A DNA stretch of 41,699 nucleotides from a virus. The notes beneath the pieces are model-generated. The model had not been told where the DNA came from. It saw only the letters and a program-made list of their open reading frames with translations, and searched no databases. This document shows positions 1,121-41,699 of this stretch, in pieces. Every line of letters begins with the position of its first letter. Position 1 is the first letter of the stretch. The stretch is from positions 1-41,699 of the IMG/VR virus record IMGVR_UViG_3300043409_000763. The stretch is one strand, 5' to 3'. A program made the translations under genes and the position numbers.

Positions 1121-4100
1121 ATGCCTTTACGTGGCCGGGTTATCTACGTTGACGATTTATATACGGTACCAGACGGAGAGATCGCCGTCTGGGGTTCAAA
1201 CATGTTCAATGCCGATAAGGGTACAGCCACGCCTGGCGCCGGGCAAGCAGAGGCAGCCGCAGGCCGTGACGGGTGGATTGGCGTTCCAACCAAGAGGGAC
1301 CCAGGCACATTCCTTACGGACGATGACCTAACTAAGTCCGACTTCTCAAAGCTCATGGACACCCAGCTCAAGAAAATCGAGGCTACGCTTGCGTCAGGTA
1401 GGGATGTCTACTTCCCATCAAAGGGCATTGGAACAAACAGGGCCAATCTTAAGTCCAGCGCCCCAGCAATCTGGGAGAAGCTCAATAGCCGACTAAGCGC
1501 ACTCGGGATTAGTAACGTGGCACCCGCCTCAGGGACTCGTGCTAGGAAGCCGACCGGGGGGTTCACCAGCCCAGATAGGGGGACGGTTCCAGTACTAGAA
1601 GGCAACGCGACGGCGGGAAACGCGCTAAAGGAAAACGTTGACGCCGTCATCGCTGCCGGCAAGATTGACCCCAAGGGCAAGGTAGAGGGTGGCACGGGCT
1701 GGGCTGTGGAAGGCGCACTGCTGCGCGGCATTCCGGTCTACGTGTTCGACGCCAGAGAAGAGCGCTGGCTGACGGCCACAGAGCCTCAGAAGTACTTTGC
1801 TGGTTGGAAGGTAGTTGATTCACCACCTACCAGCTTCAAGGATATTGCTGGAGTTGGTAGCCGAGAACTCACAGAGACGCAGTTCAACGAGATCGTTGCC
1901 TACGTAGATGGTCTAGATGAAGGCTATACCACCATCCATAGCGGCGGAGCTGGTGGGGCAGATACGGCATTCGAGGAGGCATTCGCCAAGCGGGGCGGCA
2001 AGGTGGTGTCACATTCATTTGAAGGGCACGCTCGTAAGAGCAAGGCACCCGGACAGCTAGTTCATACCCGCCCGGAGCTGGTTGCTGTTCGTCCAGAGGT
2101 GGACAAGATTGCCAAGTCACTTGGCCGTAGCATCTCGTGGGATAAGCCTGGACGTGCCTCCTATGACTCAACGGAACAACTGATCTCACGGAACATGTTC
2201 CAGATTGCACCTAACCGCAACCCTGAGGCTCTTGCCGCTAGGGCAAAGAAGCTTGACGTGGTCCTTGCCAACCGTGAAGAGATGGAAGCCGTAAGACTTG
2301 AAAACCTACGGAAGCGCGGATTTCCTGACACAAATCCATGGGAAATCCTAAATAACGTTTACTCTGGTAACAGTAAGAACGAGTTCCTTGCTGCGCTAAC
2401 AAACCGAACAAACGACCTGCCACGGGTACCTAAAACAAACGGGGCAACGAGTTCTTACGAGCACGGCAACATCAGCGAGCGGTTCCCAGTAGTGTTCAAG
2501 GGGAAGGTCTACCCATCAGCAGAGCACGCCTACGTAGCGAGCAACGCCTCTAGCGAGAAGGCCGAAACGGTTTCCGACGACGAGCTTCGCATCATGACAG
2601 AAGTCATCACTGAGAAGCTGCGTCAACACCCAGCGCTACTGACTAAGATCCAGGCCAAGATGTCAAAGCTGGGCGCTGATACCACAGGAACACAGTGGGC
2701 AGACGTCCTTGTGCATTGGACAAAGCGTGGCGGTCGATGGGAAGGCAATGGCCTAGAGTCACCGTTTCTAAAGGCGCTCGGAGCAGCAATCGACGCTGCT
2801 ATTGCTAGCCCGGAGTCCGCTGAGGACCCACGACTTATCCGTTGGATTCAAGATAAATCAAATCAAGTAAGCCTTCCTAAGCAGGGCGCAGTCAATATCC
2901 CACCAAATGCCTTTGGTGATGTGGCAGTTCAGCCGGTAACCGGCTCTGATAACATTAGAGCTGGGGCATCAGGCGAGCAAATGGACACACCAGAGGGCTT
3001 CACCACCAAGTTGATGCAAGAGTTTGCCAAGATGCGCGAAACTGGAGCCAGACAGTCTACTCTTGGGGCTAAGATCGATGGGTTTGAAGGACTGGACCCA
3101 CGGCAGAAGACGAATCTATACCGTACCTTGGGTGCATCAGGACCGTACGGATTTAGGTTTGATAGCCTAAACCAAGATCCTATCTCCGGAGTTAGCCCGG
3201 CACGCACTATTCGGGCGCGAATAAACGCTATTGCTGCGCGTATGGGCGTATCCCTGCCACCTGAGCTTGACTTTGCTCCCGGGAAGCCAATCATTGGCGA
3301 TAAGAAGACGGTAGCGCAAGTAATGGCCGACATGTTTATGGCTATTCGGTACATGAATACTGTTGAAGGACAGGGCGGTATCAGTTTTGACGGCGAAACA
3401 CGTGCCGAAATGGCGGCAATCATGCTAGAGATGTCGCGCACACTGCATGAAGTTGGCGATCCGTACTCATTGGCGATGATCAAGGGCCTGTCAAAGACCT
3501 CAAGCTCCGGCCAATACCTAGGATTGACCGCAAAGGCCAAGGAAGTTGAAGCACTTGGCGTTGACATGGTCGACGACACCGATGCGCCAGAGATTCGCGG
3601 TAAAAAGACTGGATCTCGCCTGCGACAGTTGGCTTCAGCGCAGGTTGGCATGGTACCAGAGTCTTCTCCACGCGCCACGGAGGCAAAGATGTGGCGTGCG
3701 CTAGAGCTTGACCTTGCACTTATTGACACCAAGACGCGTTTTAAAACTAAAGCGGTTTCGCGTGCCGGAGATAGCAAGGGTATCCCAAGCATTACTACCG
3801 ACAACGCCATCTATGACCTTCAGAAGGTAGTAGACGAGGTCGGCATCTGGGATGTTTCGAATGGTGGCGGTGACGATACGGCTTCTATTGACATTGACGG
3901 CTTTGTTGAGGGTGACGGCGGAGAAACATTTAGCCGAACTTTGGGCAGTCCGATCTCAGATTTGCTTGGTATTGATGAGGCAATGAATGTGGTTCGTCGA
4001 CACACATCAGTGAAGAAGCTAGAGAATCGTGGAGACTTCTCACTATTCAACTACCGTACTGGGTTTAAGTATCGATCACGACTTGGCGAGCAGGGCGTAA

Positions 4101-7100
4101 TGGGCGGAGACCAGCAGATTGAGGCACCAAAGGTTGAGCGCATTAAGGTAGACAAGCCAAATGTTGCTACACAGGCTGAATCTCTGCGACGTAGGATTCA
4201 TAATATTCGTAGCGGTATTGACGCTATGGATCGTTACGCAGCCGGGGTACTCATCGGGGCCGAGGATGCGAACGCTACCGGTGCCGTACGTCCGGTGCCA
4301 GAGCTAGAAACATACCGAGCAATGCCTGGCGGCGTTAGTGGAAAGCGCATTGCATTCCTTCGATATAAGGCAGTAGACGCAATCAAGACTCTGAATAGGG
4401 AACTTGATACGCTGATTGGGTCAAGCGGTACAGATTCTATTAGTTCGGGTCTAACCGAGTACGAAAGCGACTACCAGGCTGAACTTGCTCCAAAGTTTGG
4501 AGAGGGCGGAGCATACTCTGAGATGTATGGCGTTCAGTCTGCAGCTTCAGTGGCAACAGATACCATCAACTCTAGGGGATGGAGAGGGCTTATCGTAGCT
4601 GGTGAAACAGATCAAAAGGTAAAGCTTCCGCAATGGTATCTCGAGAAACGACGAGCCGCCTACGCCAAGTGGAAAGGTATCTTTGATGAGGTTGCACAGG
4701 TACACGGGCGAGACTACGCGACTGCGTACATGACCAGCGCAGAGGGTCTCACTCTCTACGGTGAAGAGCCACCTAAGTTTGTACAGGATTACGTCATGCT
4801 TAAGCCTGGAGACTATATGCTTCCAGACCCAATAGCTAGAGAAGTAGCCAGTAACAACCAGGGGATTATTCTAGACGTTGAAATGGATGCACTAGGAAAC
4901 GCTGTTACTGCAGACGGAAGAAGCATGGTTGAAGTTGGTGTAGATGTCTCTCCATCAAAGTCACCATTCAAGTTGCGCATTCGACCGATCGTATCATCCA
5001 AGTACCTCGTACTAAAGAACGGTACCGTAGTAGCCAATAGGTCTAGCGAGACAGGATTTATCCAGCACCGTAAGGTCTACCCGTTCCGTGTTGAGCGTGT
5101 AGATGGAGGCGGATACCGAGTAGTGCGTCTTGACGGATACCAGTTCCAGCATACTGACCCTAATCAAGTATACGATAATGAGGCACTGAAAGATACTCTT
5201 TCAAAGCTAGAAGAAGCATTTCCAGGAACGTTAGAAGATACTAGGGGTACAGCCTTTGAATCAAATCAGGCAACTGCGCTCTTAAACGAGCTGAATACGG
5301 CTATTGCTTTTGATGGTTACTCTTCGCTAGAGATTCTTGCAATCAATGGCGACATCTTCCCGTCGCTGGAGGCAGAGATCATTGGTTCAATCACAGAGGC
5401 AGATGGATTTTTCCGAGTCAGCAGGGCGCCTAACTGGACTAAGAGTAGAGCCGGAGGTGCAATCCACGCTATCTCTATGACTCCTGCAGAAAAAGCCCTT
5501 ACCAAGGTAAGCGCAAACCCAGAAGAGGCATTTATTGGGGAAGCTGATGTGGCTACGGTTGGCAAGATGCAAAGCTCAGTAGAGCCATCTGGAATGCTCG
5601 CCGGACAGCCAGCATATAAAATAACCACATATCCTGATTGGCTAGTCGAGGCATCCGGGGGCGAGGTTGCCAAGACTAAGATAACTGTTGGAACTCAGCA
5701 GGGATCACAGCGATATTCCGGCAGTATTCAGGGTCAAACCTTAACTCGTGATCAGGCTCTGGCTCTTACATCTCCGTCCACAACTTCAATCCAAAGGGCC
5801 ATTGGAGGGGCGTACACCGTTCATGATATTTTAGCTTCTCCAGAACTGTTCGGCCACACCGTTAAGACTGAAACTATGGACGGTGACAGTGGCGCTCTAT
5901 ACATCGTTCGAGCGCTCACATATATGTTGAGGCTTTCGGAAGAGGCGGTAGTTCAGATGGGCTACGGAAGCAGGTTCAGCAAGATGGACCTTGAGCGGTA
6001 TGGTCTTACCGAACCAGCAATCATGCTGGTTGATAAGTCAACTGCTATTGAGGCTGCAAGAATCGGTGGCGACACGTATGAGACCCTTGTTCGAGAGAGC
6101 CTTGACGCAGCCAGGCTCGCCGCTATGTCCCTGACAGAGGCGGCTAAGGGTACGCTTAGGAAGTCGTGGAGTGATTCTCTTGACCCTAAGTACCATCGAC
6201 ATGAGTTCCCATTGCGTACAGAGGTTGTAACTCCGCTTCAAGAATCAATGTATCCAATCTACCGCTTGCTTGAGCCAGCAACAGTTACCAGGGAGGGTGC
6301 CGAGGCTGTCACTACAGTTCTTGAGGGTGTGGCTCGTGGCAACTTCGTAGACCTGGCCCGTGTTTCAGGCGCTCTTGGAGACAAGGCAACTGCGTTCTAC
6401 ACTGCGTTCTATGCTCCGGCAGGCCTTCCAGATCCGAAGACTCTTGCGGGTATGTCAGCAGCCGAGCTAAACGAGAAAGCTGAATACTATACTTCGTTGA
6501 TTATTTCTGAAGCATCTAAGCAACTGAGAGTAGATCTTCGAGTTCCTGTAATGCCTATCCCAGAGCGCTTCAAAATCTGGGATGAAGAAAAAGGAATAGC
6601 AGTAGAACTGAAAGTAAAAGACTTCGTTGCTGCACTTTACGAGGGGGTAAAAGAAGCTAACCCACGAGAGATCTTGGCTTGGGAGCAGGGTCAGGGAGGA
6701 TTCTCTGGCCAAGAGGGCATGATGCAAATCGCCAAGCCAGACGGTACAGTTGAGGTTGTAAACGCTGCCGAGTGGCGTGCGCAAGCAAAGTCACGAAAGA
6801 TAGCTCGTGCTGTCGACGGATTCGACGCCACAACTGGACTTGACTCAGAGGGAATGGTAGTAGAGTTTGACATTAACTCAGAGTTTGACTATGCAGATAG
6901 TTTTGATGAAGGTGCGGAGCCTGTTGATGGCGTAAAGATGGGTAAGGCATCCAGCTCTGGATTCAAGTTTGCTAAGGCGGTTGCTGTTAGGTACAATAGC
7001 AATGGTGATATCCAAGCTGCAATCAGAGAAACACTACCAGACTTTACTGATATTCCAGAACTTGGAACTGCCGAAATGAAAATGTTCTTCCGAAACTTCT

Positions 7101-8323
7101 GGAAGACTCTATCTGTTGAGATGTCAGGTAAAATGGTTGGCCCAGCTATTGAGCGGGTGATTAGGACAATGATCGAGACTCAGGATGGCAAAACAAAGCT
7201 TGCCAACTCCCAAAGGATTTGGGTTCAGGACACCGATTCGCCTGTTGATGGTCCAGGCATTACGATTACATCTCAAGCTGGAGAGGGAGTTCCATCTAGC
7301 GTACCTGCACCAGAGGGTGGCTATCGGACTATAAATAAGACCGCGACAATCCAGCTTAACGATCAAGGGAAACTGGAAGTCAACACAGAGCACCTCCTTT
7401 CTCTTCTTGAGGGCAGACTTCAAGATAATGGAAAATATAGCGGGGGGCTTGACAGACTGGCTGCTAAGACTGATACTAGTTTAAGACAGCAAGCGTGGGA
7501 AGCGATTAGGCAGTACCTCAACGGACCAGAGTCCCTAAAGGCCCCATACGACTGGGGTACGCCTGGTCCAACAATGATCTCAATCAAGCGCGTCATTGAA
7601 ACAATCAAGACTGGTCGTATCCCATTTGTTGCCATTGATCCCCCTACGGACACACCGCTGAATATTCGATATGACGGTGGATCCACGGGAAAGCGGAAAA
7701 AGCAATCAACTAGCGGAGAGGATGTAGTCGATCCTAACGACTACGAGCACCTGCAAGACTCATATGCAGGCAGAGACTCCGATGATTTGTCCGGAGGCTA
7801 TACGGACACCGACTCCGAGATCATGGATCTTTCGGTCAAGCAGGGCAAGCTACTTGGCTTGCTGCAGCCAGATCAACTTGTACCTAAGTTTGGTCCGGGG
7901 CTGAAAAGCCTTGATGTCGGCCTTAGGACACCCAAAGGTAACTTTGCTGGAGGATTTGGAGCGGATGTCGGAATCATGGCCCTTCAGGGTAACCTTTCAC
8001 CAGAAAGCGCACTCTTCTCTGGCGCACTTAACTCCGTCAATCTGCTAACCAAGAGCCCATGGAAAGCTGGTCTCATTGGTTCCGTAGCAGGATTAGCGGC
8101 TACGGCAGCTACTGGCGGAGACATCGGGCGCACAATGTTCGGAATCGTTGGCTCCATCCTAGGCGGAGGCATCGGAGCATTCGCTTCCGGAGGTATCGGA
8201 ACATTCGTCGGATCTACAGCAGGCTCCCTTGCAGCAGACGAACTCTGGAAGGGACTCTTTGGTAGCAACGAAGGAATGCGACCAACAGTACAACCAATCA
8301 TACCAACTGTGAGGATTCCATAA
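1121..8323 (+). CDS. Giant 2400-residue phage protein with SLOG and NADAR-type domains and membrane tail
   Basis: Starts at ATG 1121 after a perfect AAGGAGG. Seen: residues about 19-130 (motifs VWGSNMF, GVPTKRDPGTFLT, VYFPSKGIGTNRANL) resemble a small domain that travels with NAD/ADP-ribose proteins. Residues about 155-240 hold the SLOG-type Rossmann motif GGTGWAVEGALLRGIPVYVFD. Residues 241-365 hold AGVGSRELT and the nucleotide-binding loop SGGAGGADTAFEEAF. Residues about 412-560 (RFPVVFKGKVYPSAEHAY, then GGRWEGNGLESPFLKAL) resemble NADAR/YbiA-like enzymes. Residues 570-2300 are mostly hydrophilic and unrecognised. Residues about 2316-2371 form a glycine-rich hydrophobic zipper. Known: SLOG and NADAR domains bind or process nucleotides and NAD derivatives, and long phage proteins carrying such domains (polyvalent proteins) are thought to be injected with DNA. 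Inferred: a virion-packaged, host-entering counter-defence or host-takeover protein. No protease, primase or methylase motif was found. Confidence 0.75.
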   Translation: MPLRGRVIYVDDLYTVPDGEIAVWGSNMFNADKGTATPGAGQAEAAAGRDGWIGVPTKRDPGTFLTDDDLTKSDFSKLMDTQLKKIEATLASGRDVYFPSKGIGTNRANLKSSAPAIWEKLNSRLSALGISNVAPASGTRARKPTGGFTSPDRGTVPVLEGNATAGNALKENVDAVIAAGKIDPKGKVEGGTGWAVEGALLRGIPVYVFDAREERWLTATEPQKYFAGWKVVDSPPTSFKDIAGVGSRELTETQFNEIVAYVDGLDEGYTTIHSGGAGGADTAFEEAFAKRGGKVVSHSFEGHARKSKAPGQLVHTRPELVAVRPEVDKIAKSLGRSISWDKPGRASYDSTEQLISRNMFQIAPNRNPEALAARAKKLDVVLANREEMEAVRLENLRKRGFPDTNPWEILNNVYSGNSKNEFLAALTNRTNDLPRVPKTNGATSSYEHGNISERFPVVFKGKVYPSAEHAYVASNASSEKAETVSDDELRIMTEVITEKLRQHPALLTKIQAKMSKLGADTTGTQWADVLVHWTKRGGRWEGNGLESPFLKALGAAIDAAIASPESAEDPRLIRWIQDKSNQVSLPKQGAVNIPPNAFGDVAVQPVTGSDNIRAGASGEQMDTPEGFTTKLMQEFAKMRETGARQSTLGAKIDGFEGLDPRQKTNLYRTLGASGPYGFRFDSLNQDPISGVSPARTIRARINAIAARMGVSLPPELDFAPGKPIIGDKKTVAQVMADMFMAIRYMNTVEGQGGISFDGETRAEMAAIMLEMSRTLHEVGDPYSLAMIKGLSKTSSSGQYLGLTAKAKEVEALGVDMVDDTDAPEIRGKKTGSRLRQLASAQVGMVPESSPRATEAKMWRALELDLALIDTKTRFKTKAVSRAGDSKGIPSITTDNAIYDLQKVVDEVGIWDVSNGGGDDTASIDIDGFVEGDGGETFSRTLGSPISDLLGIDEAMNVVRRHTSVKKLENRGDFSLFNYRTGFKYRSRLGEQGVMGGDQQIEAPKVERIKVDKPNVATQAESLRRRIHNIRSGIDAMDRYAAGVLIGAEDANATGAVRPVPELETYRAMPGGVSGKRIAFLRYKAVDAIKTLNRELDTLIGSSGTDSISSGLTEYESDYQAELAPKFGEGGAYSEMYGVQSAASVATDTINSRGWRGLIVAGETDQKVKLPQWYLEKRRAAYAKWKGIFDEVAQVHGRDYATAYMTSAEGLTLYGEEPPKFVQDYVMLKPGDYMLPDPIAREVASNNQGIILDVEMDALGNAVTADGRSMVEVGVDVSPSKSPFKLRIRPIVSSKYLVLKNGTVVANRSSETGFIQHRKVYPFRVERVDGGGYRVVRLDGYQFQHTDPNQVYDNEALKDTLSKLEEAFPGTLEDTRGTAFESNQATALLNELNTAIAFDGYSSLEILAINGDIFPSLEAEIIGSITEADGFFRVSRAPNWTKSRAGGAIHAISMTPAEKALTKVSANPEEAFIGEADVATVGKMQSSVEPSGMLAGQPAYKITTYPDWLVEASGGEVAKTKITVGTQQGSQRYSGSIQGQTLTRDQALALTSPSTTSIQRAIGGAYTVHDILASPELFGHTVKTETMDGDSGALYIVRALTYMLRLSEEAVVQMGYGSRFSKMDLERYGLTEPAIMLVDKSTAIEAARIGGDTYETLVRESLDAARLAAMSLTEAAKGTLRKSWSDSLDPKYHRHEFPLRTEVVTPLQESMYPIYRLLEPATVTREGAEAVTTVLEGVARGNFVDLARVSGALGDKATAFYTAFYAPAGLPDPKTLAGMSAAELNEKAEYYTSLIISEASKQLRVDLRVPVMPIPERFKIWDEEKGIAVELKVKDFVAALYEGVKEANPREILAWEQGQGGFSGQEGMMQIAKPDGTVEVVNAAEWRAQAKSRKIARAVDGFDATTGLDSEGMVVEFDINSEFDYADSFDEGAEPVDGVKMGKASSSGFKFAKAVAVRYNSNGDIQAAIRETLPDFTDIPELGTAEMKMFFRNFWKTLSVEMSGKMVGPAIERVIRTMIETQDGKTKLANSQRIWVQDTDSPVDGPGITITSQAGEGVPSSVPAPEGGYRTINKTATIQLNDQGKLEVNTEHLLSLLEGRLQDNGKYSGGLDRLAAKTDTSLRQQAWEAIRQYLNGPESLKAPYDWGTPGPTMISIKRVIETIKTGRIPFVAIDPPTDTPLNIRYDGGSTGKRKKQSTSGEDVVDPNDYEHLQDSYAGRDSDDLSGGYTDTDSEIMDLSVKQGKLLGLLQPDQLVPKFGPGLKSLDVGLRTPKGNFAGGFGADVGIMALQGNLSPESALFSGALNSVNLLTKSPWKAGLIGSVAGLAATAATGGDIGRTMFGIVGSILGGGIGAFASGGIGTFVGSTAGSLAADELWKGLFGSNEGMRPTVQPIIPTVRIP

Positions 8324-8856
8324 TGCCACCACGAAAAAACGTAAACCCAGACGGAAACAGTCAGTTTGACTTTAGCAAAGCTAAGTCGGCTATTCCATTT
8401 AGAACTCCAAACCTGACAAACCGAAGACCTGATATTAGTAACCTCAGGAACGATCCGAGAATGATGCAGGCTGGTGTGGCTAGCCCATGGAAAGCGATGG
8501 CCATGTTCACCGCTAAGCTCATTCGAAACGGACATACCGAAGATGCCCTTACGTCACTCAACGCCGCTATGCGAGTAGTGATGAAGGCTCCTAGGGGACC
8601 CGTTGCAACTAGGATGACTCGGGCAGTAGCAAGGGGTGGGATGGAAGAAGCAAACTCAGTTCTTAATGGAACACCATCAACGATCTCTTACCCTGGTATT
8701 AGAACTGTAGATGCATCAGCGTACTACCGGTCAATGTCTCAAATCCTTGGACGATACGCTGGACGTCTTCCGCTTACTTCAGGAGAGTCTGTTGCTGCTA
8801 GGGCAGCAGGCGTTGTACTAAAGAATCAAGCTAGGCTTTGGAGGAATATCAAGTAA
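8323..8856 (+). CDS. Basic hypothetical protein coupled to the giant protein
   Basis: 177 residues; the start overlaps the previous stop (TAATG), so translation is coupled. Rich in Arg, Lys and Asn with a disordered, basic N-terminus (PPRKNVNPDGN) and helical, alanine-rich remainder. No motif is recognised. The phrase ASPWKA also occurs as KSPWKA near the end of the 2400-residue protein, from a shared 14-base stretch, which may be chance. Its position between the giant protein and other basic small proteins suggests a virion or head-interior component. That is inference from context. Confidence 0.7.
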   Translation: MPPRKNVNPDGNSQFDFSKAKSAIPFRTPNLTNRRPDISNLRNDPRMMQAGVASPWKAMAMFTAKLIRNGHTEDALTSLNAAMRVVMKAPRGPVATRMTRAVARGGMEEANSVLNGTPSTISYPGIRTVDASAYYRSMSQILGRYAGRLPLTSGESVAARAAGVVLKNQARLWRNIK

Positions 8857-10088
8857 TGGCGCCACGTAGAAGCAACTTGATCCCAGACATGAGGGAGACG
8901 CGCTGGCCAACCCAGTCGTTCTCTAATCCGTACGGCCCGCAGAGGTATCGTACCCCTTCTATGGGTGGTGTCGCTAAGGCAAATAGCGGACTTGATATGG
9001 GTGGATTTCTTAAGTGGGGTTTCGGTGGTCCAGTAAGCCAGGAACAGAGACTTGTAAATCAGGCTAACGAGGACAAGTCTACAATAAACCTATTTGGAAA
9101 AACTGTCAAGACATCTGAAGTTATTGGCTTGGCTGCCACAGCTGCTCTTGGTGCTGCCGGTATCTATGCGGCACGAAGCGGCATGAAGGCTCGTGCATCT
9201 ACATCATCCTTAGCCGCATCAAGGGTTTCCAATGCTGCTACCATCTTAGCAAATCGCCGGGCTGCTGGCATTCAGTACAGAGATATTGTTGGCTATAACA
9301 GGGCAGCAAGGGTAGCGCGTGCTTCGACAAATGTTCGCGCTGCTCGACTTGTTCGAGCAGAGGCTGCGCTATTGGAATCAAACCCTCAACTCGCTCAGGC
9401 AGCTGGAGACAGAGCATACGCATTTAGGGCCGGCAGGACGATTAGATCAGAGATGGCGCAGTCGGGAACAATAGGTCGAGGTAGAAGGACTCTACCCAGC
9501 ATAGGATTTGGACCAAGACAAGTAGGGGCCAGAAGTTTCCCATACACAGATGGTCCGGCAGCAGGTTCGCACCACCAGTATACTCCAGTGAGCAGGTCAT
9601 TCCCAGGATCTAGGGACGGCGCAGAATGGCTTAGAAAGACTGAAGGATACTCGGATAGCTATGGGCGTACAGGTATGGAAAGACTAGTCGGGATGTATCC
9701 TGGAGGCGTTCCTAAGGGTGGATGGATGAGACAACCTAACCTTAGAAAGCGAACACCAACCCCTTCAAGGTGGGATACTGCACTTAAAGATCCTGTTATT
9801 AACGTTGGTGAAATGGAAGATGGACCACACAGGGATCGAGTAGTTTCTCTCCTCGATGATGCGACTGCCTTTAGGAACAGATCTGCCTGGAGACTTCAGG
9901 CAGATGGAAGGACCGCATTCCCTAAATCACACTCTTGGATTCACGATCCTGCATGGGCTCCTGAAGTTTACCAACTGAAAGTTATAAAGGCTGCTGAATC
10001 AAGAGCTAGATTGTCAGCACCTAAAAAGCGTATGGGATATGTCCACAGCTCAGTGGTCCCGCGCATTCAGTTAAAGAAAGGAAAGTAA
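8856..10088 (+). CDS. Basic protein with an alanine-rich hydrophobic helix; paralogue of 13559-14266
   Basis: I choose ATG 8856, which overlaps the previous stop as TAATG and has GGAGG upstream, over an in-frame ATG at 8838; the product is 410 residues. The first 70 residues are basic and Gly-rich. A likely membrane or packing helix follows (GLAATAALGAAGIYAARS), then a long Arg-rich region. The helix and its leading phrase (GKTVKTSEVI) align with the protein at 13559-14266, so the two are probably duplicates that diverged in their C-terminal parts. The last codons (10038-10069) are an exact copy of a 32-base stretch found again at 35546-35577, so the C-terminal tail may be a graft. A virion-associated role is inferred from the position. 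Confidence 0.7.
   Translation: MAPRRSNLIPDMRETRWPTQSFSNPYGPQRYRTPSMGGVAKANSGLDMGGFLKWGFGGPVSQEQRLVNQANEDKSTINLFGKTVKTSEVIGLAATAALGAAGIYAARSGMKARASTSSLAASRVSNAATILANRRAAGIQYRDIVGYNRAARVARASTNVRAARLVRAEAALLESNPQLAQAAGDRAYAFRAGRTIRSEMAQSGTIGRGRRTLPSIGFGPRQVGARSFPYTDGPAAGSHHQYTPVSRSFPGSRDGAEWLRKTEGYSDSYGRTGMERLVGMYPGGVPKGGWMRQPNLRKRTPTPSRWDTALKDPVINVGEMEDGPHRDRVVSLLDDATAFRNRSAWRLQADGRTAFPKSHSWIHDPAWAPEVYQLKVIKAAESRARLSAPKKRMGYVHSSVVPRIQLKKGK
10038..10069 (+). repeat. Copy A of a perfect 32-base long-distance repeat
   Basis: Starts TATGTCCACAGCTCAG and ends CGCGCATTCA; identical to 35546-35577. GG precedes both copies one mismatch upstream, and a gapped TAAAA(A)GCGT also precedes both. Here it is read in the frame of the basic protein's C-terminus (GYVHSSVVPRI). 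Confidence 0.95.
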
Positions 10089-10239: not shown

Positions 10240-12065
<1,826 letters not shown>

Positions 12066-12069
<4 letters not shown>

Positions 12070-13100
12070 ATAAGCTAAAGATTGTAACTCAGACAGATAG
12101 CATTGAGAAGAATGATTGGATGGACGATTGTGGACCGTCAACTCTGATGGCTGCTGCTAACTTCTTAACCGGGTCTTCACTGAAGTCTAAAGATGGTATT
12201 GAAATCTTTGAGAAGGTCGGACGTAAGGATATTGACGGAAAAGGAACTCCATCATCTTTCTACCAGATTATAGAAGCTGCACATCTCGTTGGTGTTAAGG
12301 CTAGGTGGGCTAAAAGTTGGGACGATGTCCTAACGTCACTAAGCTCAGGGCTTGTAGTTTGCATCAATGTTGAGCAGGCTAAAGGATATCCATCGTCTGT
12401 ACAAATGAGCGCATGGCACAAAGCGCATCAGAAGCGCAACCCTGGCAAGACATACGGCCACTACACCTGCGCTGCAGGGTGGGAGGACAAGGCACAATGG
12501 GCGGACCCGACCATGAAAGGATCTGGGAAAGAGACATATGCTGTGGTGGTTTCGATTGCGGATCTGAAGGCAATCGCAAGCTCGAAGGGGGTTGCCCCAC
12601 ACAAGCGTTGCCTGATTTTCTCAGCAGCCCAGAAGAAGTCATCCGCACCTGTCCCAACTGCGGCTCCGGTCTCATCGACCGTGCCTGCAAGCTCATCTGC
12701 TCCTGTGGTTACTACGCCTCCTGCTCAGACTATCTCTAGCTCCCCCGTACAGGTCGATTTGCAGCCCGTAGGGGCCGTCAAGGTACCGTCAGTGGTCAAG
12801 ACAGCACCAGCACCAATAGACCCCGCCCTTGCCCTTAAAGTCGCCTGGGGTATTGTCGGCAAAATAAAGGCGGCTAGAGGAGATAAAACGATGAAAGATC
12901 AAATCATCGCTGCCGGCCTGGATGCGATTCAGGCTGCCCTATCAACCGCTATCGCGGTTTTCCTAGGTCTTGGAGTAAGTATCTTTGACCTTAGCGGCGA
13001 CGGCTTGAAGGCAGTTGCAGCATCGGCCATTAGTGCCGCACTGCTCGTGCTTCAGCGCTGGCTCGACGAGGACAACGTTCGCTATGGCCGCACTCGTTAA
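12066..13100 (+). CDS. Fused lysin: C39-like cysteine peptidase, Pro/Ser linker and holin-like C-terminus
   Basis: 344 residues, start coupled by ATGA. Residues 1-188 look like a papain-fold C39-type peptidase: catalytic Cys22 in DDCGPSTL, His132 in YGHYTCAAGW and Asp147 in WADPT. This suggests an endolysin cleaving peptide bonds of peptidoglycan. Residues about 191-252 are a low-complexity Ala/Pro/Ser/Val/Thr linker. Residues 276-344 (MKDQIIAAGLDAIQAAL, FLGLGVSIFDLSGDG, ISAALLVLQRWLDED) look like a small two-helix holin of r1t type. An internal Shine-Dalgarno and ATG at 12891 could release that holin alone. The linker DNA also holds a zinc-ribbon frame (12608-12739). Peptidase, fusion and internal start are visible; the substrate is inferred. 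Confidence 0.8.
12608..12739 (+). CDS. Possible overprinted zinc-ribbon protein in another frame of the lysin linker
   Basis: In the frame that opens at about 12413 and closes at TAG 12737-12739, the 43 codons from a TTG at 12608 end with TCPNCGSGL and then CKLICSCGYYASCSDYL. The spacing is C-x2-C-x8-C-x3-C-x1-C-x5-C, ending SDY. This strongly resembles a known class of small zinc ribbons (CPxCG, then CKxxC, CGYF, CSD). The lysin frame over the same DNA reads only Ala, Pro, Ser, Val and Thr. The start is uncertain: TTG starts are used elsewhere in this phage, but no good ribosome site precedes 12608, and an ATG at 12413 would give 108 residues. It may be a live overlapping gene or the fossil of one. 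Confidence 0.45.
   Translation: MPDFLSSPEEVIRTCPNCGSGLIDRACKLICSCGYYASCSDYL
12877..12893 (+). promoter_or_regulatory. Internal ribosome-binding site and start inside the lysin gene
   Basis: GAGGAG (12877-12882), eight bases, then ATG (12891), in frame with the lysin. Strength and spacing equal those of the phage's normal gene starts. The site falls exactly at the border between linker and holin-like domain. Confidence 0.65.
12891..13100 (+). CDS. Candidate stand-alone holin from an internal start
   Basis: 69 residues, the C-terminal end of the fused lysin. Two amphipathic or hydrophobic helices (residues about 8-30 and 38-58 of this product) flank a short turn with FDLSGDG and end in a charged tail (RWLDEDNVRYGRTR), as in r1t-type holins. 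If made, full-length and short forms share one frame, like dual-start holin genes. The internal ribosome site is the evidence. Whether it is used in the cell is inference. Confidence 0.5.
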   Translation: MKDQIIAAGLDAIQAALSTAIAVFLGLGVSIFDLSGDGLKAVAASAISAALLVLQRWLDEDNVRYGRTR

Positions 13101-13572
13101 CCTAGCACCAGTACTGGAACGATGCGCTGCATGCCGCAGCCCATTTGTAGACCAGATCAACCAGAAGATGTCAAACGGCCTAGCTGACACCAAAGTAGCA
13201 TCATGGCTTAAAGAACAAGGCGCTTACATTTCAAGGATCACCTTGGGTCAGCATAAGCGGTCCCACTTAACAACAGAGTATCAGGCTGCCAAGGCCGAGG
13301 TGATTAAGAAGTTTAAGAAGAATCAGCAAACAATGAAAGCTAATGGTGATCTCGCAGATCTTGTGAGAAACCAGGTTATGGCAATGGTGGACGCCGGAGA
13401 ACTAATGCCAACATTGGCAGAAGGTCTTCGCGCCCAGGAGATGATCGACCGACGTGTTGAAAAGTCGGCTGACAGGGAACTGTCTGTAACTTTAGCTGGC
13501 ATCTTGGGCGGAGGCCCGATTGTCCAGATGATTGAAATGCAAGCAGAGGAGATCACAGATGGCAACACGTAA
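13084..13572 (+). CDS. Putative small terminase or DNA-binding protein with CxxC...HxxxH finger
   Basis: I choose ATG 13084 (162 residues). The frame is also open upstream but there only mirrors the holin. Residues 14-61 contain C14-x2-C17 and H57-x3-H61 around a helical segment (GLADTKVASWLKEQG), a likely zinc-stabilised helix-turn-helix. The rest is helical and acidic. Small terminase subunits have an N-terminal DNA-binding domain and helical oligomerisation region, and this gene lies three genes before the large terminase. Overlaps the lysin end by 17 bases and the next gene by 14. A transcription regulator is the main alternative. Confidence 0.5.
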   Translation: MAALVNLAPVLERCAACRSPFVDQINQKMSNGLADTKVASWLKEQGAYISRITLGQHKRSHLTTEYQAAKAEVIKKFKKNQQTMKANGDLADLVRNQVMAMVDAGELMPTLAEGLRAQEMIDRRVEKSADRELSVTLAGILGGGPIVQMIEMQAEEITDGNT

Positions 13573-14266
13573 GGGAGGTCCAGGTAGATGGGGAGTTGGA
13601 CAAAATCCAGGAAGTCTTAACAACTCTCCGTTCAAGGGATCGGATCCTATTTCTCAGATCGCATCATTCGCTTGGAGACTACCTGGCGCTGTTGCTAGTG
13701 GTCGCAAGATGAATGGCAAGAAGGTTAGCGCTGAAGAGTTGGGTGGACTTGCTGCAGCGGCTGCACTTACCGCTGCTGGTATTTATGCCAGCAGGAGTGC
13801 CGGCCGAACATTGCCACGAACCCCAGGCGCACGACCGATGACCACTGCAGAGCGCAGCGTTGCTGTGACTCGTGCAGGTAGGACTGGCGTTGGCAAGATT
13901 GGACCAAGCATCAAGCCGCAAGATCCAACTTACACAGCCCGTGGCGAGGCACTTTCGTCTTATCAAAAAGCCATTTATCATGCTCAGTCGGTACTTAGCA
14001 GACGTAAACTACAAGACCCTAGAGTTCCAGCACATGCGAGACAGGTAAATATGTCTCCGGCGGCTGCCGCAAGGGCTAGGCGTATCATGGGTCAGGTTGA
14101 GCAAGATCGGATTGAGCGAGCAGCAATAAGAAACCAAGCATGGACATTCTTTGCAGGCAGAGGTGGTCGCGCTAGGATTAAAGACCTTGACCGGGTATAC
14201 GAAGGATACCTTACTAATATGGTAGATCCTTCTAGTATTCGTAAGAATCCTAGAAAAAATAAGTAA
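13559..14266 (+). CDS. Basic protein with alanine-rich helix; paralogue of 8856-10088
   Basis: Start at ATG 13559 (235 residues) after GAGGAG, rather than an ATG at 13532. A basic Gly/Arg-rich N-terminus is followed by GKKVSAEELG and GLAAAAALTAAGIYASRS, matching the earlier protein (GKTVKTSEVI, GLAATAALGAAGIYAARS). The remainder is Arg-rich and unlike the paralogue. Probably a minor virion protein with a membrane-seeking or packing helix. No enzyme motif is visible. Confidence 0.7.
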   Translation: MATRKGGPGRWGVGQNPGSLNNSPFKGSDPISQIASFAWRLPGAVASGRKMNGKKVSAEELGGLAAAAALTAAGIYASRSAGRTLPRTPGARPMTTAERSVAVTRAGRTGVGKIGPSIKPQDPTYTARGEALSSYQKAIYHAQSVLSRRKLQDPRVPAHARQVNMSPAAAARARRIMGQVEQDRIERAAIRNQAWTFFAGRGGRARIKDLDRVYEGYLTNMVDPSSIRKNPRKNK

Positions 14267-14559
14267 TGCCTAAGTCACCAGCATGGACTCGCAAGGAAGG
14301 TAAGAACCCCAAGGGCGGCTTGAACGCCAAGGGTCGTGCCTCCTACAAGGGCGGCACCCTTAAGGCCCCTGTCAAGTCTGGTGACAACCCACGCCGTGCC
14401 TCATTCCTAGCCCGTATGGGCGGGATGCCAGGACCAGAGAAGGACGAAAAGGGAAGACCGACCCGTCTACTCCTAAGCCTGCAGGCATGGGGAGCAAGCA
14501 GTAAGGCCGACGCAAAGCGTAAGGCGGCTGCGATTAGCGCTAGAAATAAGGGCAAGTGA
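14266..14559 (+). CDS. Small basic protein, resembles DUF6321
   Basis: 97 residues; start within TAATG. The N-terminal phrase SPAWTRKEGKNPKGGLNAKG and the segment RRASFLARMGGMPG match, from memory, a family of about 100-residue basic proteins found beside terminase genes of cyanophages and pelagiphages. The biochemical role is unknown. The next gene, the large terminase, starts inside its stop (GTGA), suggesting a packaging or head-related job. Confidence 0.75.
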   Translation: MPKSPAWTRKEGKNPKGGLNAKGRASYKGGTLKAPVKSGDNPRRASFLARMGGMPGPEKDEKGRPTRLLLSLQAWGASSKADAKRKAAAISARNKGK

Positions 14560-16046
14560 ATGTAACTAGCGATGCGGCCAGAGACTTGGCTGCAGGCAGA
14601 AATGATCCCGTCTTCTTTGCCAAGCGTTGGCTAGGTATTGAACTTCATGCCGGTCAGACTGCATGGGTGGAAGGTATAGCTGCACGCGATGAGTCCGGAT
14701 GGCGGCCAAAGTATCTTACTACTGTCTGCTCTGCTGGCAACCGTGCTGGCAAGACTCTTGGAATGGCAGTTGCAGTATTCCACAGCGCATTTTACAAGCT
14801 TGGCGTTCAGCCGCCAGACGGTACTGAGAAGGACGCCATGCGATGGCAGACTGCTCCGTACGAGTGGTATCACGTAGGTATTCAACAGGAGACAGCGGAG
14901 TTGGTTCACCGCGAAATCTCGATGATTCTAGAGGGCGGACACCCGGCACAGAGAGGCCGGGGCTGCCCTCTAATCTCTGAAATAGGTAGAGTGGTTGACC
15001 ACGTTAGGAAATACCGAGGGGAATACCTTTGGCTGCAGTTCCATCCTCTGGTAGGCGGGGCCAATGTTCACTTCAGAACCACCCAGGATAAGGCTAAGGC
15101 CTTGCTTGGCAAGGACATGAACGGCATCTCCTTTGACGAAGCGGCCTTTGAGCCTCACCTAATGCAGATCTATCAAGAAGTTCTAAACCTTCGGCGCCTG
15201 TCAACTGGGGGCCAGCTCCACTTTATCGGTACTCCTACTGAGGGAATCAACGATTACGCTGATTTGTGGGAGATGGGCAATCCAAAGAGGGAGGATAAGG
15301 ACCCACAGGTATTCTCTTTTAGGCTATCTACTAGGGATAATGTCGGTTACGGCTTGACACCGGACACGTTTGACGCTATCCTACGTCAACAAGCAGATTA
15401 TCTTATTGCTCAGAACGTAGATGGATTCTTCATTGAATCCAGAGAAGCATTCTTTTCTTCTGAAACTGTAGAAGCTTGCTTCACAGATCTACCAGAAGAA
15501 GCCCAGCCCGTAGCGCGAAGGCGATACGTCCAAGGGTGCGATCCTGGTATTGCATCAGATTCAACATGGGCAATCATCCTTGACTACACAGAGAAGAACA
15601 GGATTCGAGGAGTGAGGGCCCGGACCAGGTCTGGCAAGCAGACCATTCAGGCAGTAGTAAACATGGTTCGAGAGAATCATCTCCTATTCAACCAAGACTC
15701 CAGCTGCGTCACCATTGTTGATGAAACTGGATTTGGTGGAAAGCTATTTAAGCAAGAGTTCAGCGTAATCAAGCCCATCCGTGGCTATGACTTCGGTGGC
15801 ACAAAGGCCAAGAAACTTGATCTCCTGTCCGACCTGCGAACGGCTATTGACCGGAAGCAGTTGATGTTCCCCAGGATTGGAGTTTGGCTACGTCTACGCC
15901 GTCAACTTCTATCCTACAAGTTGGATGACAAGAAGCTGGAGCAAGATGCCGTTATGGCACTAGCAATCGCCCTTCGTCATGCGGTGCGAAACTCAAGCGA
16001 TCATTTGGAAAGCCCAACGTTTAGTTATTTTGGAGGTTCTGATTAA
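14556..16046 (+). CDS. terL: Terminase large subunit
   Basis: 496 residues from a GTG start overlapping the previous stop. ATPase domain: Walker A SAGNRAGKT (59-67), Walker B GISFDEAAF (190-198) with its catalytic Glu, and coupling motif FIGTPTEG (223-230). Nuclease domain of RNase H fold: Asp329 in GCDPGIASDS, Asp389 in TIVDETGFGGK and Asp464 in LEQDAVMA, the usual acidic triad. Together they drive DNA into the prohead and cut it. All key residues are present and the length is normal. Directly followed by the portal gene. Confidence 0.95.
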   Translation: MNVTSDAARDLAAGRNDPVFFAKRWLGIELHAGQTAWVEGIAARDESGWRPKYLTTVCSAGNRAGKTLGMAVAVFHSAFYKLGVQPPDGTEKDAMRWQTAPYEWYHVGIQQETAELVHREISMILEGGHPAQRGRGCPLISEIGRVVDHVRKYRGEYLWLQFHPLVGGANVHFRTTQDKAKALLGKDMNGISFDEAAFEPHLMQIYQEVLNLRRLSTGGQLHFIGTPTEGINDYADLWEMGNPKREDKDPQVFSFRLSTRDNVGYGLTPDTFDAILRQQADYLIAQNVDGFFIESREAFFSSETVEACFTDLPEEAQPVARRRYVQGCDPGIASDSTWAIILDYTEKNRIRGVRARTRSGKQTIQAVVNMVRENHLLFNQDSSCVTIVDETGFGGKLFKQEFSVIKPIRGYDFGGTKAKKLDLLSDLRTAIDRKQLMFPRIGVWLRLRRQLLSYKLDDKKLEQDAVMALAIALRHAVRNSSDHLESPTFSYFGGSD

Positions 16047-18028
16047 TGGCTAAAGCTAAGGTAACCCTACCAGAGGAGAGCAAGCGAGCGGTAAACCTTG
16101 CCTCTGCGTCCCTTCAGATGCAGGGTCTGGACCCAAACGTTGATCCAACCTTCCAGATTATCTCAGAAGCGTATAACCGAAAGCAGATGCAGGAACCAGA
16201 GATGGCCCGCCTGCGCGCTCAGTTCCGTCGACATGACCACTTCTACTACCCGTCTACAGTTACACTGGGTGGGGCTGACCACTGGGCAGAAGACCCGAGC
16301 GCTCGAACTGCCGGTAAGGCACACGTTTCTGTTAACCTTCATCCGTCGTATGTCAACATCCCTGCTTCAATCCAGGCGATCCAGCCTATCATCAACTACG
16401 TAGCAACAGACCTAAGCAAAGAGGGTCGCATGTCAGCCGCTCGTCGAGAGCGGCTTTTCTTTGCCTGGGCTGAGAACAACGAGTTTGATGTGCGCATGGA
16501 AGAGGCATGTCTATACAAGTGCCTCTACGGACACACCGCTGCTAAGATCTCGTGGGACAGCAAGCGAGGAATCCCTAAGCTACAAATCATTGACACACCA
16601 GAGAACCTATACATGGGTTTCGGTGACTCAAACTACAACCGAGTAGACTGGGCTGTCTACAGCTACGGCCTAAGCCCACAGGCGGCGGAAGAAGACTTTG
16701 GCATCTCGGTTATCCCAGTTCAAGACGGCAACAAGTGGTGGCCATACACAGCATCTGCAAGCCACAGCGATCCACTTGCAAACATGTACACCAAGGAGTT
16801 TCAGCGACAGCCTAACAAGATCAATACAGCCTATGACGATATGAAGATCCAGGTTCTGGACTACTGGTACAAGGTACCAACTAAGGCCGGTCAGGCACCA
16901 CTTGTGATGAACGCCCTCATTGTTGGAAACTCTCTTGTTTCACAGACTAAGCACCCAGAACTGGCCGGTGAACTACCGTACGTTGTTCTTCGGAACAGCA
17001 TTGTCCCTGGAAGCCCGTACGGCCGATCAGAACTATTTGACGTAGAGCAGCTTCTCCGGGAGAAGGACGAGCGAATCACTGCTCAGGCCCAGATGATCCA
17101 GTCGATTGTCGGCGGACAGATGTGGCAGCTCGTCGGAGGCGACGCACCAGACGAGGTGCCGGCAAACGCCATTCCGAAGCCGGGCCGCGTTGCGACACCG
17201 GGACCTGGCAACGAACTGCGAGCCATTCAACCATTCATCCCCCAGTTCCAGATCGAGGACTACAACCGACGCATTGACCGAGAGATTGCAGTCGTCACTG
17301 GGCTGAACGACCTCCTCCTTGGCCTCGCTCCATCAAGCGTTCTTGGTTCCAGCCGTGCTATCGCATCGCTTGTTGCCAACTACGAGCAGCGCATTGCTCC
17401 AAAGCGCAAGCTTCTATACTCTTGGATCAAGCGCGTGTGGGAGATCAGCGCTCGAATGTGGGAGTCCCTAGACCCTTCGGTCGCTGAGATCATCCAGGGC
17501 GAGTATCGCCTTGAAGTAACCCCTCCAGAACTTACGCCGCGAGATACACTTGAACTTGCACAGACTGCACTCAACCTTGTTCAGGGTCGAATCTGGTCTG
17601 CCGAGCGCGCAATGGATCGAGTTGGCGTAGAGGACCCAGAAGGTGAGAAGGATCTGATCCGCGACGAGCAGACAGACGCCACACTCAACCCTGCTGCTGT
17701 AATGACTATGGGTAACCTCATGGCACTATTCCAGCAGCTTCAAATGCAGGGAGTCCAGATGCAACAGATGCAGGCCCAACAGATGCAGGCTGCCCAGCAA
17801 CTACAGGCTCAGCAGGAAAGCGCCATGAACGCCTTCCGTCAGCAGGGAGCGCCTGGTGGCCAGCCAATGATGAACGGCGGAGAGATGGGCGGTCTGCCAC
17901 CAGAGATGATGCCTGGAAACGCACAAGCTCCTGGTTCATCAATGCCTAACGCAGCACAGGGTTCACCCGACGCTCAGTCTCAGCAACTACCGCCAGAACT
18001 CCTGGCAGCACTTGGTGGAGGTCAGTAA
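16046..18028 (+). CDS. Portal protein
   Basis: 660 residues, start in TAATG after the terminase. Typical portal features: an alpha/beta wing region (residues about 60-330), EDYNRRIDREIAVVTGLNDL near the middle, then a long stem and crown helical region (ISARMWESL onward). The last 100 residues are Met/Gln-rich (QMQGVQMQQMQAQQMQ) and then Gly/Pro/Met-rich and disordered, a likely crown extension. It forms the dodecameric ring at one capsid vertex through which DNA enters and leaves. Identification rests on position after terL, length and the VVTGLND-like phrase. Confidence 0.85.
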   Translation: MAKAKVTLPEESKRAVNLASASLQMQGLDPNVDPTFQIISEAYNRKQMQEPEMARLRAQFRRHDHFYYPSTVTLGGADHWAEDPSARTAGKAHVSVNLHPSYVNIPASIQAIQPIINYVATDLSKEGRMSAARRERLFFAWAENNEFDVRMEEACLYKCLYGHTAAKISWDSKRGIPKLQIIDTPENLYMGFGDSNYNRVDWAVYSYGLSPQAAEEDFGISVIPVQDGNKWWPYTASASHSDPLANMYTKEFQRQPNKINTAYDDMKIQVLDYWYKVPTKAGQAPLVMNALIVGNSLVSQTKHPELAGELPYVVLRNSIVPGSPYGRSELFDVEQLLREKDERITAQAQMIQSIVGGQMWQLVGGDAPDEVPANAIPKPGRVATPGPGNELRAIQPFIPQFQIEDYNRRIDREIAVVTGLNDLLLGLAPSSVLGSSRAIASLVANYEQRIAPKRKLLYSWIKRVWEISARMWESLDPSVAEIIQGEYRLEVTPPELTPRDTLELAQTALNLVQGRIWSAERAMDRVGVEDPEGEKDLIRDEQTDATLNPAAVMTMGNLMALFQQLQMQGVQMQQMQAQQMQAAQQLQAQQESAMNAFRQQGAPGGQPMMNGGEMGGLPPEMMPGNAQAPGSSMPNAAQGSPDAQSQQLPPELLAALGGGQ

Positions 18029-33244: not shown

Positions 33245-33922
33245 ATGAAGAAACTCGTAGGGGATCTTTACCAGCATGAGTTGGCAAAGGCACGAAAGGA
33301 CAGGCCAGGTAAGGCCAAGTGGCGTGGGTCGCTACTAGGTGGGTGTATGCGCCAGCAGGTGTACTACGCCAACAACGAGCCAGTCAGCAACCCAAGATCA
33401 GAGGACGTACTGCGCATTTTTGAGCGCGGTAATATCATCGGTACCTCACTCAACGACAGGCTTAAGAACTCCGAGTTCCTTAAGTCATACGAGGATGAGG
33501 TGCCTCTTGCAATCCCAGAGCTTGACTTTGCTGGGAATGCAGATGCTGTCGTCACATGGATGGACGACACAAAGGAAGTCTGGGAGTATAAGTCCGTCAA
33601 GGCATTTGCCTGGAAGTATATTCCCAAGCCTGAGCACCAAGTGCAAGCAGCAATCTACGCAGAGGCTATAAGCCGTATGCGTGGCGAGCGGCACGGTGCC
33701 AGGCTTGTTTACGTTCGCGCAGATGACCTTGCCACAAGCGAGTTCATCGTCGAGGACGAGTGGCGGGAAAAGGCACTTTCCATTTTGGCATTGCTAAATG
33801 GAGAGTACCGTGATACACTTCCTCCTGCGCTCCCAGAGGAAGAGTTTAGGTCCGAGAAAACGGGGGAGTGGAAGTTTCCGTGTGGTCACTGTGAGTACCT
33901 CACAAAGTGCAGGGGTGAATGA
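33245..33922 (+). CDS. Cas4/RecB-like PD-(D/E)XK nuclease with Fe-S cysteines
   Basis: 225 residues from ATG 33245. Cys34 in LLGGCMRQQVYY, Asp100 in GNADAVV, Glu114 and Lys116 in WEYKS, Gln132 in EHQVQAAIYAEA, and a C-terminal Cys trio (C213, C216, C222 in CGHCEYLTKC). One N-terminal and three C-terminal cysteines round a RecB core is the mark of the iron-sulphur Cas4/AddB-type exonuclease fold. It should resect DNA ends to single strands. The annealing protein ERF begins inside its stop codon, so the pair forms a recombination module like lambda Exo/Beta. Confidence 0.85.
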   Translation: MKKLVGDLYQHELAKARKDRPGKAKWRGSLLGGCMRQQVYYANNEPVSNPRSEDVLRIFERGNIIGTSLNDRLKNSEFLKSYEDEVPLAIPELDFAGNADAVVTWMDDTKEVWEYKSVKAFAWKYIPKPEHQVQAAIYAEAISRMRGERHGARLVYVRADDLATSEFIVEDEWREKALSILALLNGEYRDTLPPALPEEEFRSEKTGEWKFPCGHCEYLTKCRGE

Positions 33923-34440
33923 TGAGCGATAAGAAGCTCGCAGCCAAACTGGCCGATATCATGGGAGAGATCGGTCGCATTGCTAAGGGCGGTACTAACT
34001 CCGCCCAAGGGTACAAGTACGTCATGGCATCGCAGGTTGCTGATGCTGTGCGAGAGAAGCTGGCGGCGCACAACGTCATCATGCTTCCGGTTGGGGCCGA
34101 CGTTGTGGAAAGCACTCGTACTCCAAGCGAGAAGCAGTCGTTGCTAACCATCCGCTTCACGTGGCGCTTCATTGACGGTGACAGCGGCGAGACCTTGGAC
34201 TTCCAGTCCATTGGTACTGGCGCTGACTCAGGAGATAAGGCAGCGTACAAGGCAACCACAGGAGCTATCAAGTACGCACTGTTGACTGCGTTCCTCATCC
34301 CAACAGGTGATGACCCAGAGAACGACAGTGCTGTAGCGGCTGCCGCCAAGGAAATCTTTGGCGACACAGTAAAGCCTTTGGATAAGACCGCGAAGGCTCC
34401 AAAGAAGGCAACCGGTGAGTGGGAAGGAGTGGAGTTCTAA
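33919..34440 (+). CDS. erf: ERF-family single-strand annealing protein
   Basis: 173 residues; ATGATG start overlapping the nuclease stop. The ERF signature is clear: N-terminal IGRIAKGGTNSAQGYKYVMA, then GTGADSGDKAAYKATTGA and the following KYALLTAFLIPTGDDPEND. The C-terminal 35 residues are Lys/Ala-rich and flexible. ERF proteins form rings on single-stranded DNA and anneal complementary strands, which allows phage recombination and circularisation without RecA. Confidence 0.9.
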   Translation: MMSDKKLAAKLADIMGEIGRIAKGGTNSAQGYKYVMASQVADAVREKLAAHNVIMLPVGADVVESTRTPSEKQSLLTIRFTWRFIDGDSGETLDFQSIGTGADSGDKAAYKATTGAIKYALLTAFLIPTGDDPENDSAVAAAAKEIFGDTVKPLDKTAKAPKKATGEWEGVEF

Positions 34441-35223: not shown

Positions 35224-35527
35224 GGGGAACGCCTTTGAGCGAGAGGTAGCCAAGAAGCACGGAGGTAGGCGCACCGGTATGTACGGTGGGCCAGACGACG
35301 TGACAGTTGACGATCTCTACAAGATTCAGACCAAGGTTGGCTTGATGTTCAGCGAAAAGTATTGGCGCTGGCTCAAGGCAATGACTGTAAACGCTGACCA
35401 GATTGCCTATCTGGTCATCGGGGATGCACCTGGGCCGGGAACACCACGCCGAACTGTGGTGATCATGGACGAGTCCGATTGGCTCGTGATTAAGGAGAAG
35501 CTGCATGGCAGTACCGAAGGCAAGTAA
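35141..35527 (+). CDS. Holliday-junction-resolvase-like PD-(D/E)XK nuclease
   Basis: 128 residues from ATG 35141 with GGGAGG upstream; an in-frame start at 35090 is less likely. RRNRSRGNAFEREVAKKHGG, then GMYGGPDDVTVD and YKIQTKVGL show the archaeal-Hjc-like order: Glu33/35, Asp52/53 and Q63-x-K65, with Gln replacing the usual Glu. A lone domain of about 125 residues in a recombination operon suggests junction or branch cleavage before packaging. The Gln substitution occurs in some active relatives but is worth noting. Overlaps the previous gene by 83 bases. Confidence 0.75.
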   Translation: MNLDERMDQKLMGAMKDLAIQGRRNRSRGNAFEREVAKKHGGRRTGMYGGPDDVTVDDLYKIQTKVGLMFSEKYWRWLKAMTVNADQIAYLVIGDAPGPGTPRRTVVIMDESDWLVIKEKLHGSTEGK

Positions 35528-35729
35528 GAAGGGTAAAAGCGTGGCTATGTCCACAGCTCAGTGGTCCCGCGCATTCAATGTGGCGCTCGCAACATTTCTG
35601 GTTGAGTACTCAAACCTCAAGCCAGATGGTGACGATAAGCCCATCAATGTACCTATCGACAACATCGTAGCTCTTTCTGCTGGTGTTGCGTTGAAGATTG
35701 TGGAGATCTCTGATGGCGACGACGCCTAA
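35505..35729 (+). CDS. Small hypothetical protein carrying the 32-base repeat
   Basis: 74 residues; ATG 35505 with AAGGAG upstream inside the resolvase-like gene. Basic start (PKASKKGKS), then a helical part (STAQWSRAFNVALATFLVE) and acidic end (EISDGDDA). The repeat copy B at 35546-35577 encodes residues about 15-25 in a frame different from copy A. No family known. Confidence 0.6.
   Translation: MAVPKASKKGKSVAMSTAQWSRAFNVALATFLVEYSNLKPDGDDKPINVPIDNIVALSAGVALKIVEISDGDDA
35546..35577 (+). repeat. Copy B of a perfect 32-base long-distance repeat
   Basis: Identical to 10038-10069, 25,508 bases away, in direct orientation. Here it is read as MSTAQWSRAF. It contains the short inverted match CCAC/GTGG (35551-35564). 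Confidence 0.95.
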
Positions 35730-41567: not shown

Positions 41568-41699
41568 TTACTTGATACCGTACTTTGCGAGTGCATCTTC
41601 CTTGCTGATTGGCCTTCTAGTAACCACAACATGAAAATCTACCTTTAGATCATGATTGTCGTATAGATCTTCCATATCTACACTTCCACGGCAGCTTGA
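41568..41699 (-). CDS. Leftward small gene at the right edge
   Basis: The frame is open from the window edge to TAA at 41568-41570 (43 visible codons). An internal ATG at 41675 after GGAAGTG gives a 35-residue protein (EDLYDNHDLKVDFHVVVTRR, then PISKEDALAKYGIK). If the window is circular, a stop lies just upstream of this ATG and the 35-residue product is complete; otherwise the gene may be longer. No family known. Confidence 0.5.
   Translation of the reverse strand, partial: SSCRGSVDMEDLYDNHDLKVDFHVVVTRRPISKEDALAKYGIK

Follow-up and report, generated by a model that had tools for sequence, protein, structure and literature searches.

The window, by which we mean the whole stretch of DNA that was analysed, is one IMG/VR virus record of 41,699 bases. 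Two of its ORFs, of 416 and 74 aa, share the 32-mer TATGTCCACAGCTCAGTGGTCCCGCGCATTCA as exact copies on the + strand, in direct orientation and 25,508 nt apart (Table 1). The copy in the 416-aa gene is called copy 1 and that in the 74-aa gene copy 2. The 74-aa gene sits between the Erf and exonuclease genes on one side and the DnaB helicase gene on the other. A preliminary description of this DNA had labeled the two genes ‘structural’ and ‘replication’, respectively. These labels stand as statements of location only, as neither the 416-aa protein nor the 74-aa protein has a match in PHROGs or Pfam. The listed TTG start of the 416-aa ORF is itself doubtful. Relatives point to an ATG at 8856 (MAPRR..), which overlaps the upstream gene's end and is likely the true start.

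Table 1. Features of the window that bear on the 32-nt repeat
Feature	Position	Strand	Basis
Recipient gene, 416-aa ORF, putative protein	8838..10088	+	ORF list, translation; homologs at 43-53% identity
Copy 1, newly inserted patch of 32 nt close to the recipient gene's 3' end	10038..10069	+	exact match to 35546-35577; absent in 6/6 homologs
7-nt filler completing the 39-nt in-frame insertion	10070..10076	+	comparison of L018 with the window
Terminase match, virion module	14556
Portal match, virion module	16046
Major head protein match, virion module	26314
DNA polymerase exonuclease-like protein, replication/recombination module	32098
PD-(D/E)XK / Cas4-like exonuclease gene beside erf	33245..33922	+	PF12705 32 bits (cut-off 22); phrog_1706, phrog_1990
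Gene for an Erf-type single-strand annealing protein, possible helper	33919..34440	+	PF04404 51 bits (cut-off 25); phrog_155 E 6.7e-29
Source gene, 74-aa ORF, replication/recombination module	35505..35729	+	65-85% protein identity to relatives
Copy 2, old source copy	35546..35577	+	same peptide, same place in 7/7 relatives covering it
DnaB helicase, replication/recombination module	37766

Other features of the window were recorded in passing. A 2400-aa ORF (1121-8323) locally matches phrog_768, a DprA-like family, which is odd for a phage protein so large, and a fibre-like gene (10679-11395) contains collagen-like repeats of the Gly-X-Thr type. No end repeat of the window was found. The two ends of the window, 1-95 and 41683-41699, map about 3.75 kb apart on the related record G002 (12900-16653), and the window may lack that stretch.

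The repeat and its reading frames

The identical 32-base direct repeat, with a spacing of about 25.5 kb, was confirmed. It is exact at both sites, and 0 of 100 dinucleotide shuffles of the window contained two matches to the 32-mer. No third place for it was found in the window at up to three mismatches. The two copies had also been described as read in different frames, and this holds, as the offset is 2 mod 3. The first base of copy 1 falls on codon position 1 of its ORF, giving YVHSSVVPRIQ, and that of copy 2 on codon position 3, giving MSTAQWSRAF. When copy 1 is read in the frame of the source gene, window positions 10039-10074 form a closed mini-ORF of 11 codons from ATG to TAA (MSTAQWSRAFS), which is probably incidental.

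The weaker gapped similarity noted earlier just upstream of the repeat fared less well. It is present, and blastn joins it with the repeat into one alignment of 46 versus 43 nt at 91%, but it is unremarkable. An alignment as good as that of the donor left flank was obtained at 582 of 8000 random window positions (7%), and the flank at the right junction scored 0, leaving no significant microhomology at either junction. The upstream similarity was therefore dropped as a guide to the copying.

Relatives of the recipient and source genes

A tblastn search of 50,697 phage records found no relatives of either the 416-aa or the 74-aa protein, and a first protein search with the 416-aa protein likewise found none. 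Viral contigs contained eight relatives of the 74-aa gene, and a repeat search based on their alignment returned the same eight records. One of these, G002, also carries a homolog of the 416-aa gene. With the conserved gene directly downstream as an anchor, nine close relatives were obtained (L014-L022), six of which contain a 416-aa homolog: L014, L015, L016, L017, L018 (the same as G002) and L020, with L014 and L015 being nearly the same phage. A family-alignment search gave five loci, all from records already found. We also added the stretches listed by a pattern search, at least 119 of them, to the tblastn database for recipient homologs. With at least 119 stretches in that database, one weak partial match was seen (L146); it comes from the record of L016, belongs to a different protein and was not counted.

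None of the six homologs of the 416-aa protein has the 13 residues found near its end or the string YVHSSVVPRIQ (0/6). L018, which shares the gene layout of the window here, ends in ..APKKRIG-KGK*, and the window protein ends in ..APKKRMG-YVHSSVVPRIQLK-KGK*. The corresponding codons are CCT AAG AAA CGA ATT GGG - AAA GGG AAG TGA in L018 and CCT AAA AAG CGT ATG GGA - (39 nt) - AAA GGA AAG TAA in the window. In L014-L017 a different gene comes next and L020 has a shorter end; the C-terminus of the family is otherwise alike. Because the six homologs are without the 13 residues, and L018 ends directly in KGK, the window gene carries a 39-nt in-frame insertion. The insertion consists of the 32 copied nucleotides and the 7-nt filler GTTAAAG, contains no stops, and lies 9 nt ahead of the stop codon, where it adds the 13 residues before the final KGK. 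The filler heptamer recurs once elsewhere in the window, at 26364 on the - strand.

The same flanking sequence bears on whether the repeat could be a misassembly or a library chimera, with one copy absent from the real phage, as the preliminary description had allowed. The window rests on one metagenomic virus record, small k-mers could be confused by a repeat of only 32 nt, and the viral collection yielded neither a second record of this phage nor a record of any phage with both copies. However, the flanks would be traded between the copies if the assembly had misjoined them at the repeat, and here each copy lies in its expected sequence context to the left and to the right: copy 1 is preceded by APKKRMG and followed by KGK, the stop codon and the conserved next gene, and copy 2 has source-gene sequence on either side. 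Nor can such a join lengthen a gene that is otherwise correct by 39 nt, 7 of them filler, and the added sequence is in frame and free of stops. Judged from these flanks, an assembly artefact appears quite unlikely.

The source gene gives the complementary view. Seven of its eight relatives span the patch (L010 begins at residue 26), and all seven encode the peptide (M/L)(S/A)TAQWS(R/Q)(A/S)F at that site, with M in the window and L in the relatives. At the DNA level the patch is less alike than its surroundings. Across six relatives, not counting L008, whose patch is identical to that of L007, the patch matches at 21-23 of 32 positions and the rest of the gene at 133-153 of 176; in L003, for example, the values are 23/32 and 153/176. 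Copy 2 also has locally unusual codons compared with the relatives (GGGGCGTAGC to GGGTAAAAGC, and AGT CGT to TCC CGC). We considered an earlier replacement of copy 2 and dropped it, since 9-16% of nearby windows are as low in identity as the patch and the dip is not unusual. Copy 2, itself locally diverged from its relatives, may nevertheless have undergone some earlier exchange.

Direction, age and rival explanations

Because all seven covering relatives encode the same peptide in the same place, copy 2 is, on this comparison, the ancestral copy, retained as protein and not as DNA. Copy 1 is new, being absent from all six homologs of its gene, and the inserted bases match another locus of the same genome at 32 of 32 positions. 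The two copies differ at 0 of 32 sites, which places their divergence below about 9% (95% bound), versus 9-11 of 32 sites between copy 2 and its relatives. Because of this difference, the copying is judged to postdate the split from every relative found. The suggestion that a patch was recently copied from one gene to the other is therefore borne out, and the relatives supply the direction, from the 74-aa gene to the 416-aa gene. Relatives with a single copy, which had been put forward as possible grounds for doubting the repeat, were indeed found, but they reveal which copy is new rather than making the repeat unreal. We regard the fact and the direction of the copying as highly probable. From the sequence comparisons, we hold with strong confidence that a single accidental copying event between these genes, recent and within this phage lineage, left the repeat behind as its scar.

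Copying in the reverse direction, from the 416-aa gene to the 74-aa gene, or derivation of both copies from a third source, would accord with the locally unusual codons of copy 2. Against this, the reading frame through copy 2 yields the ancestral peptide, as in 7/7 relatives, which would not be so with random incoming DNA, and copy 1 is an insertion without trace in its homologs. Searches for a third source gave nothing for the sequences tried: the exact 32-mer and a codon-degenerate version of it had no match in viral_contigs, and its 24-mer core had none in genome_contigs. We consider a reverse or third-source origin very unlikely.

The perfect identity of two places in one genome could also suggest a functional DNA site, for protein binding, packaging, replication or regulation, that has been retained at both. 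The relatives argue against such a site at either place. Copy 1 is missing from 6/6 recipient homologs. At copy 2 it is the peptide that is conserved, whereas 9-11 of the 32 nucleotides are changed in relatives, and the DNA of the patch is less conserved than the rest of its gene. The window has no further copy at up to three mismatches, and the viral collection has none. The binding, packaging or replication mark proposed earlier is thus highly improbable.

The same absence of copy 1 from relatives, and the conservation of copy 2 as protein only, weigh against the recombination or deletion site that had also been proposed. A programmed recombination site, which would excise or isomerise 25.5 kb, or the template and variable pair of a diversity-generating element is hinted at by the direct orientation and by the position of copy 1 at a C-terminus but is hardly credible, since excision would remove the terminase, portal and major head protein genes that lie between the copies and so be lethal, the pair occurs in no relative, the copies have 0 mismatches and hence no A-specific ones, and no reverse transcriptase was found among the 22 window proteins scanned or the 7 in the Pfam scan, with some small ORFs lying outside these scans. 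A tRNA-derived attachment site was considered for AGCTCAGTGGT, which we take to resemble a tRNA D-arm, and was then dropped.

Possible mechanism and comparable events

Ectopic patch copying, by a template switch or by annealing of a short single strand, is the most likely route to the insertion. A replicating or broken end in the 416-aa gene would have taken the 74-aa locus as its template for about 32 nt; alternatively, a short single-stranded piece of the 74-aa locus would have annealed into the 416-aa gene. We give this mechanistic step about an even chance of being right. The Erf annealing protein and the exonuclease would be plausible helpers, and from the presence of its gene in this phage Erf possibly assisted. 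The added tail of 13 residues was probably close to neutral.

The closest named process, by analogy, is SPDIR, reportedly described by Harms et al. in 2016 for transformation of Acinetobacter. SPDIR resembles the present case in that a short intragenomic or extragenomic piece ends up at a locus to which it is unrelated and has little or no homology, and the resulting change is clustered. The present case differs in that it concerns a phage genome, is an insertion instead of a replacement, and has junction homology that is not significant. SPDIR is named in PMC7192050. Similar to template switching of the FoSTeS/MMBIR type, a stretch has been copied from afar and filler bases stand at one junction, although such switching is described mainly for eukaryote genomes in the papers found, and here the genome is that of a phage. 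A further parallel is the relaxed recombination carried out by phage Rad52-like annealing proteins (Red-beta, RecT, Erf), since this phage encodes Erf and an exonuclease. According to De Paepe et al. 2014 (PMC3945230), phage Rad52-like recombinases, including Erf of phage D3, recombine diverged sequences and short stretches, and Martinsohn et al. 2008 (PMC2327257) tested Red on diverged sequences. These studies concern homologous exchange, for example between 800-bp repeats (PMC3945230), whereas here nothing is shared beyond the copied patch. In searches of open-licence papers, no title or abstract opening among those listed reported a comparable templated insertion of a short ectopic patch in a phage, which is weak evidence of absence.

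The repeat thus appears to be a real but fairly ordinary copying error of a known kind, neither a signal nor a recombination site. By itself it is one mutation in one record. Its value is as a clean, polarised natural case in a phage, in which source, recipient, size, frame and relative age can all be read. Should such events turn out to be common where phages encode annealing proteins, new C-terminal sequence would have a testable route of origin, and some of the unexplained short repeats in phage genomes would be accounted for. A stronger proposal, that phages with an Erf-type annealing protein routinely insert short pieces of one gene, out of frame, into the free ends of their other genes, seems unlikely; were it true, ectopic patch copying would be a steady source of new protein tails, and the window would show one such event before its decay.

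The background of exact repeats was surveyed in 210 loci comprising 1.50 Mb, which are short, partly overlapping and in some cases from the same records. They contained 48 exact repeats of at least 20 nt lying more than 150 nt apart. Among those listed, nearly all repeats of at least 22 nt are spaced by a multiple of 3, as happens in fibre-type genes with repetitive sequence, and the out-of-phase repeats, judged from their spacings, reach at most 26 nt (L096, L104, L153). The longest out-of-phase repeat in a set of nine relative contigs, two of which were cut at 20 kb, was 18 nt with a complexity filter applied. Only one of 12 named phages (504 kb) has a non-terminal, out-of-phase exact repeat of at least 28 nt. 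Exact out-of-phase repeats of such length are uncommon but not unique.

The one exception is Paenibacillus phage SV21 (L247, MZ218124.1), which has an exact, out-of-phase direct repeat of 104 nt at 30695 and 40027. An annotated dUTPase gene of 150 nt overlaps the second copy with its 3' end. This repeat appears to reflect ectopic copying of the same type, only larger. Like the 32-nt repeat it is exact, non-tandem, out of phase and direct, and lies within the genome of a tailed phage; it differs in being three times longer, and an older copy has been assigned only for the repeat described here. Within the window, positions 7641-7660 in the 2400-aa ORF and 16522-16541 in the portal-like gene form an imperfect repeat (19/20 nt; 17 exact), which we judged to be near chance level. 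In the relative G003, the sequence CGGTTAGATTGGCGTAG occurs three times (3676, 4503 and 7302) and is perhaps a promoter-like repeat.
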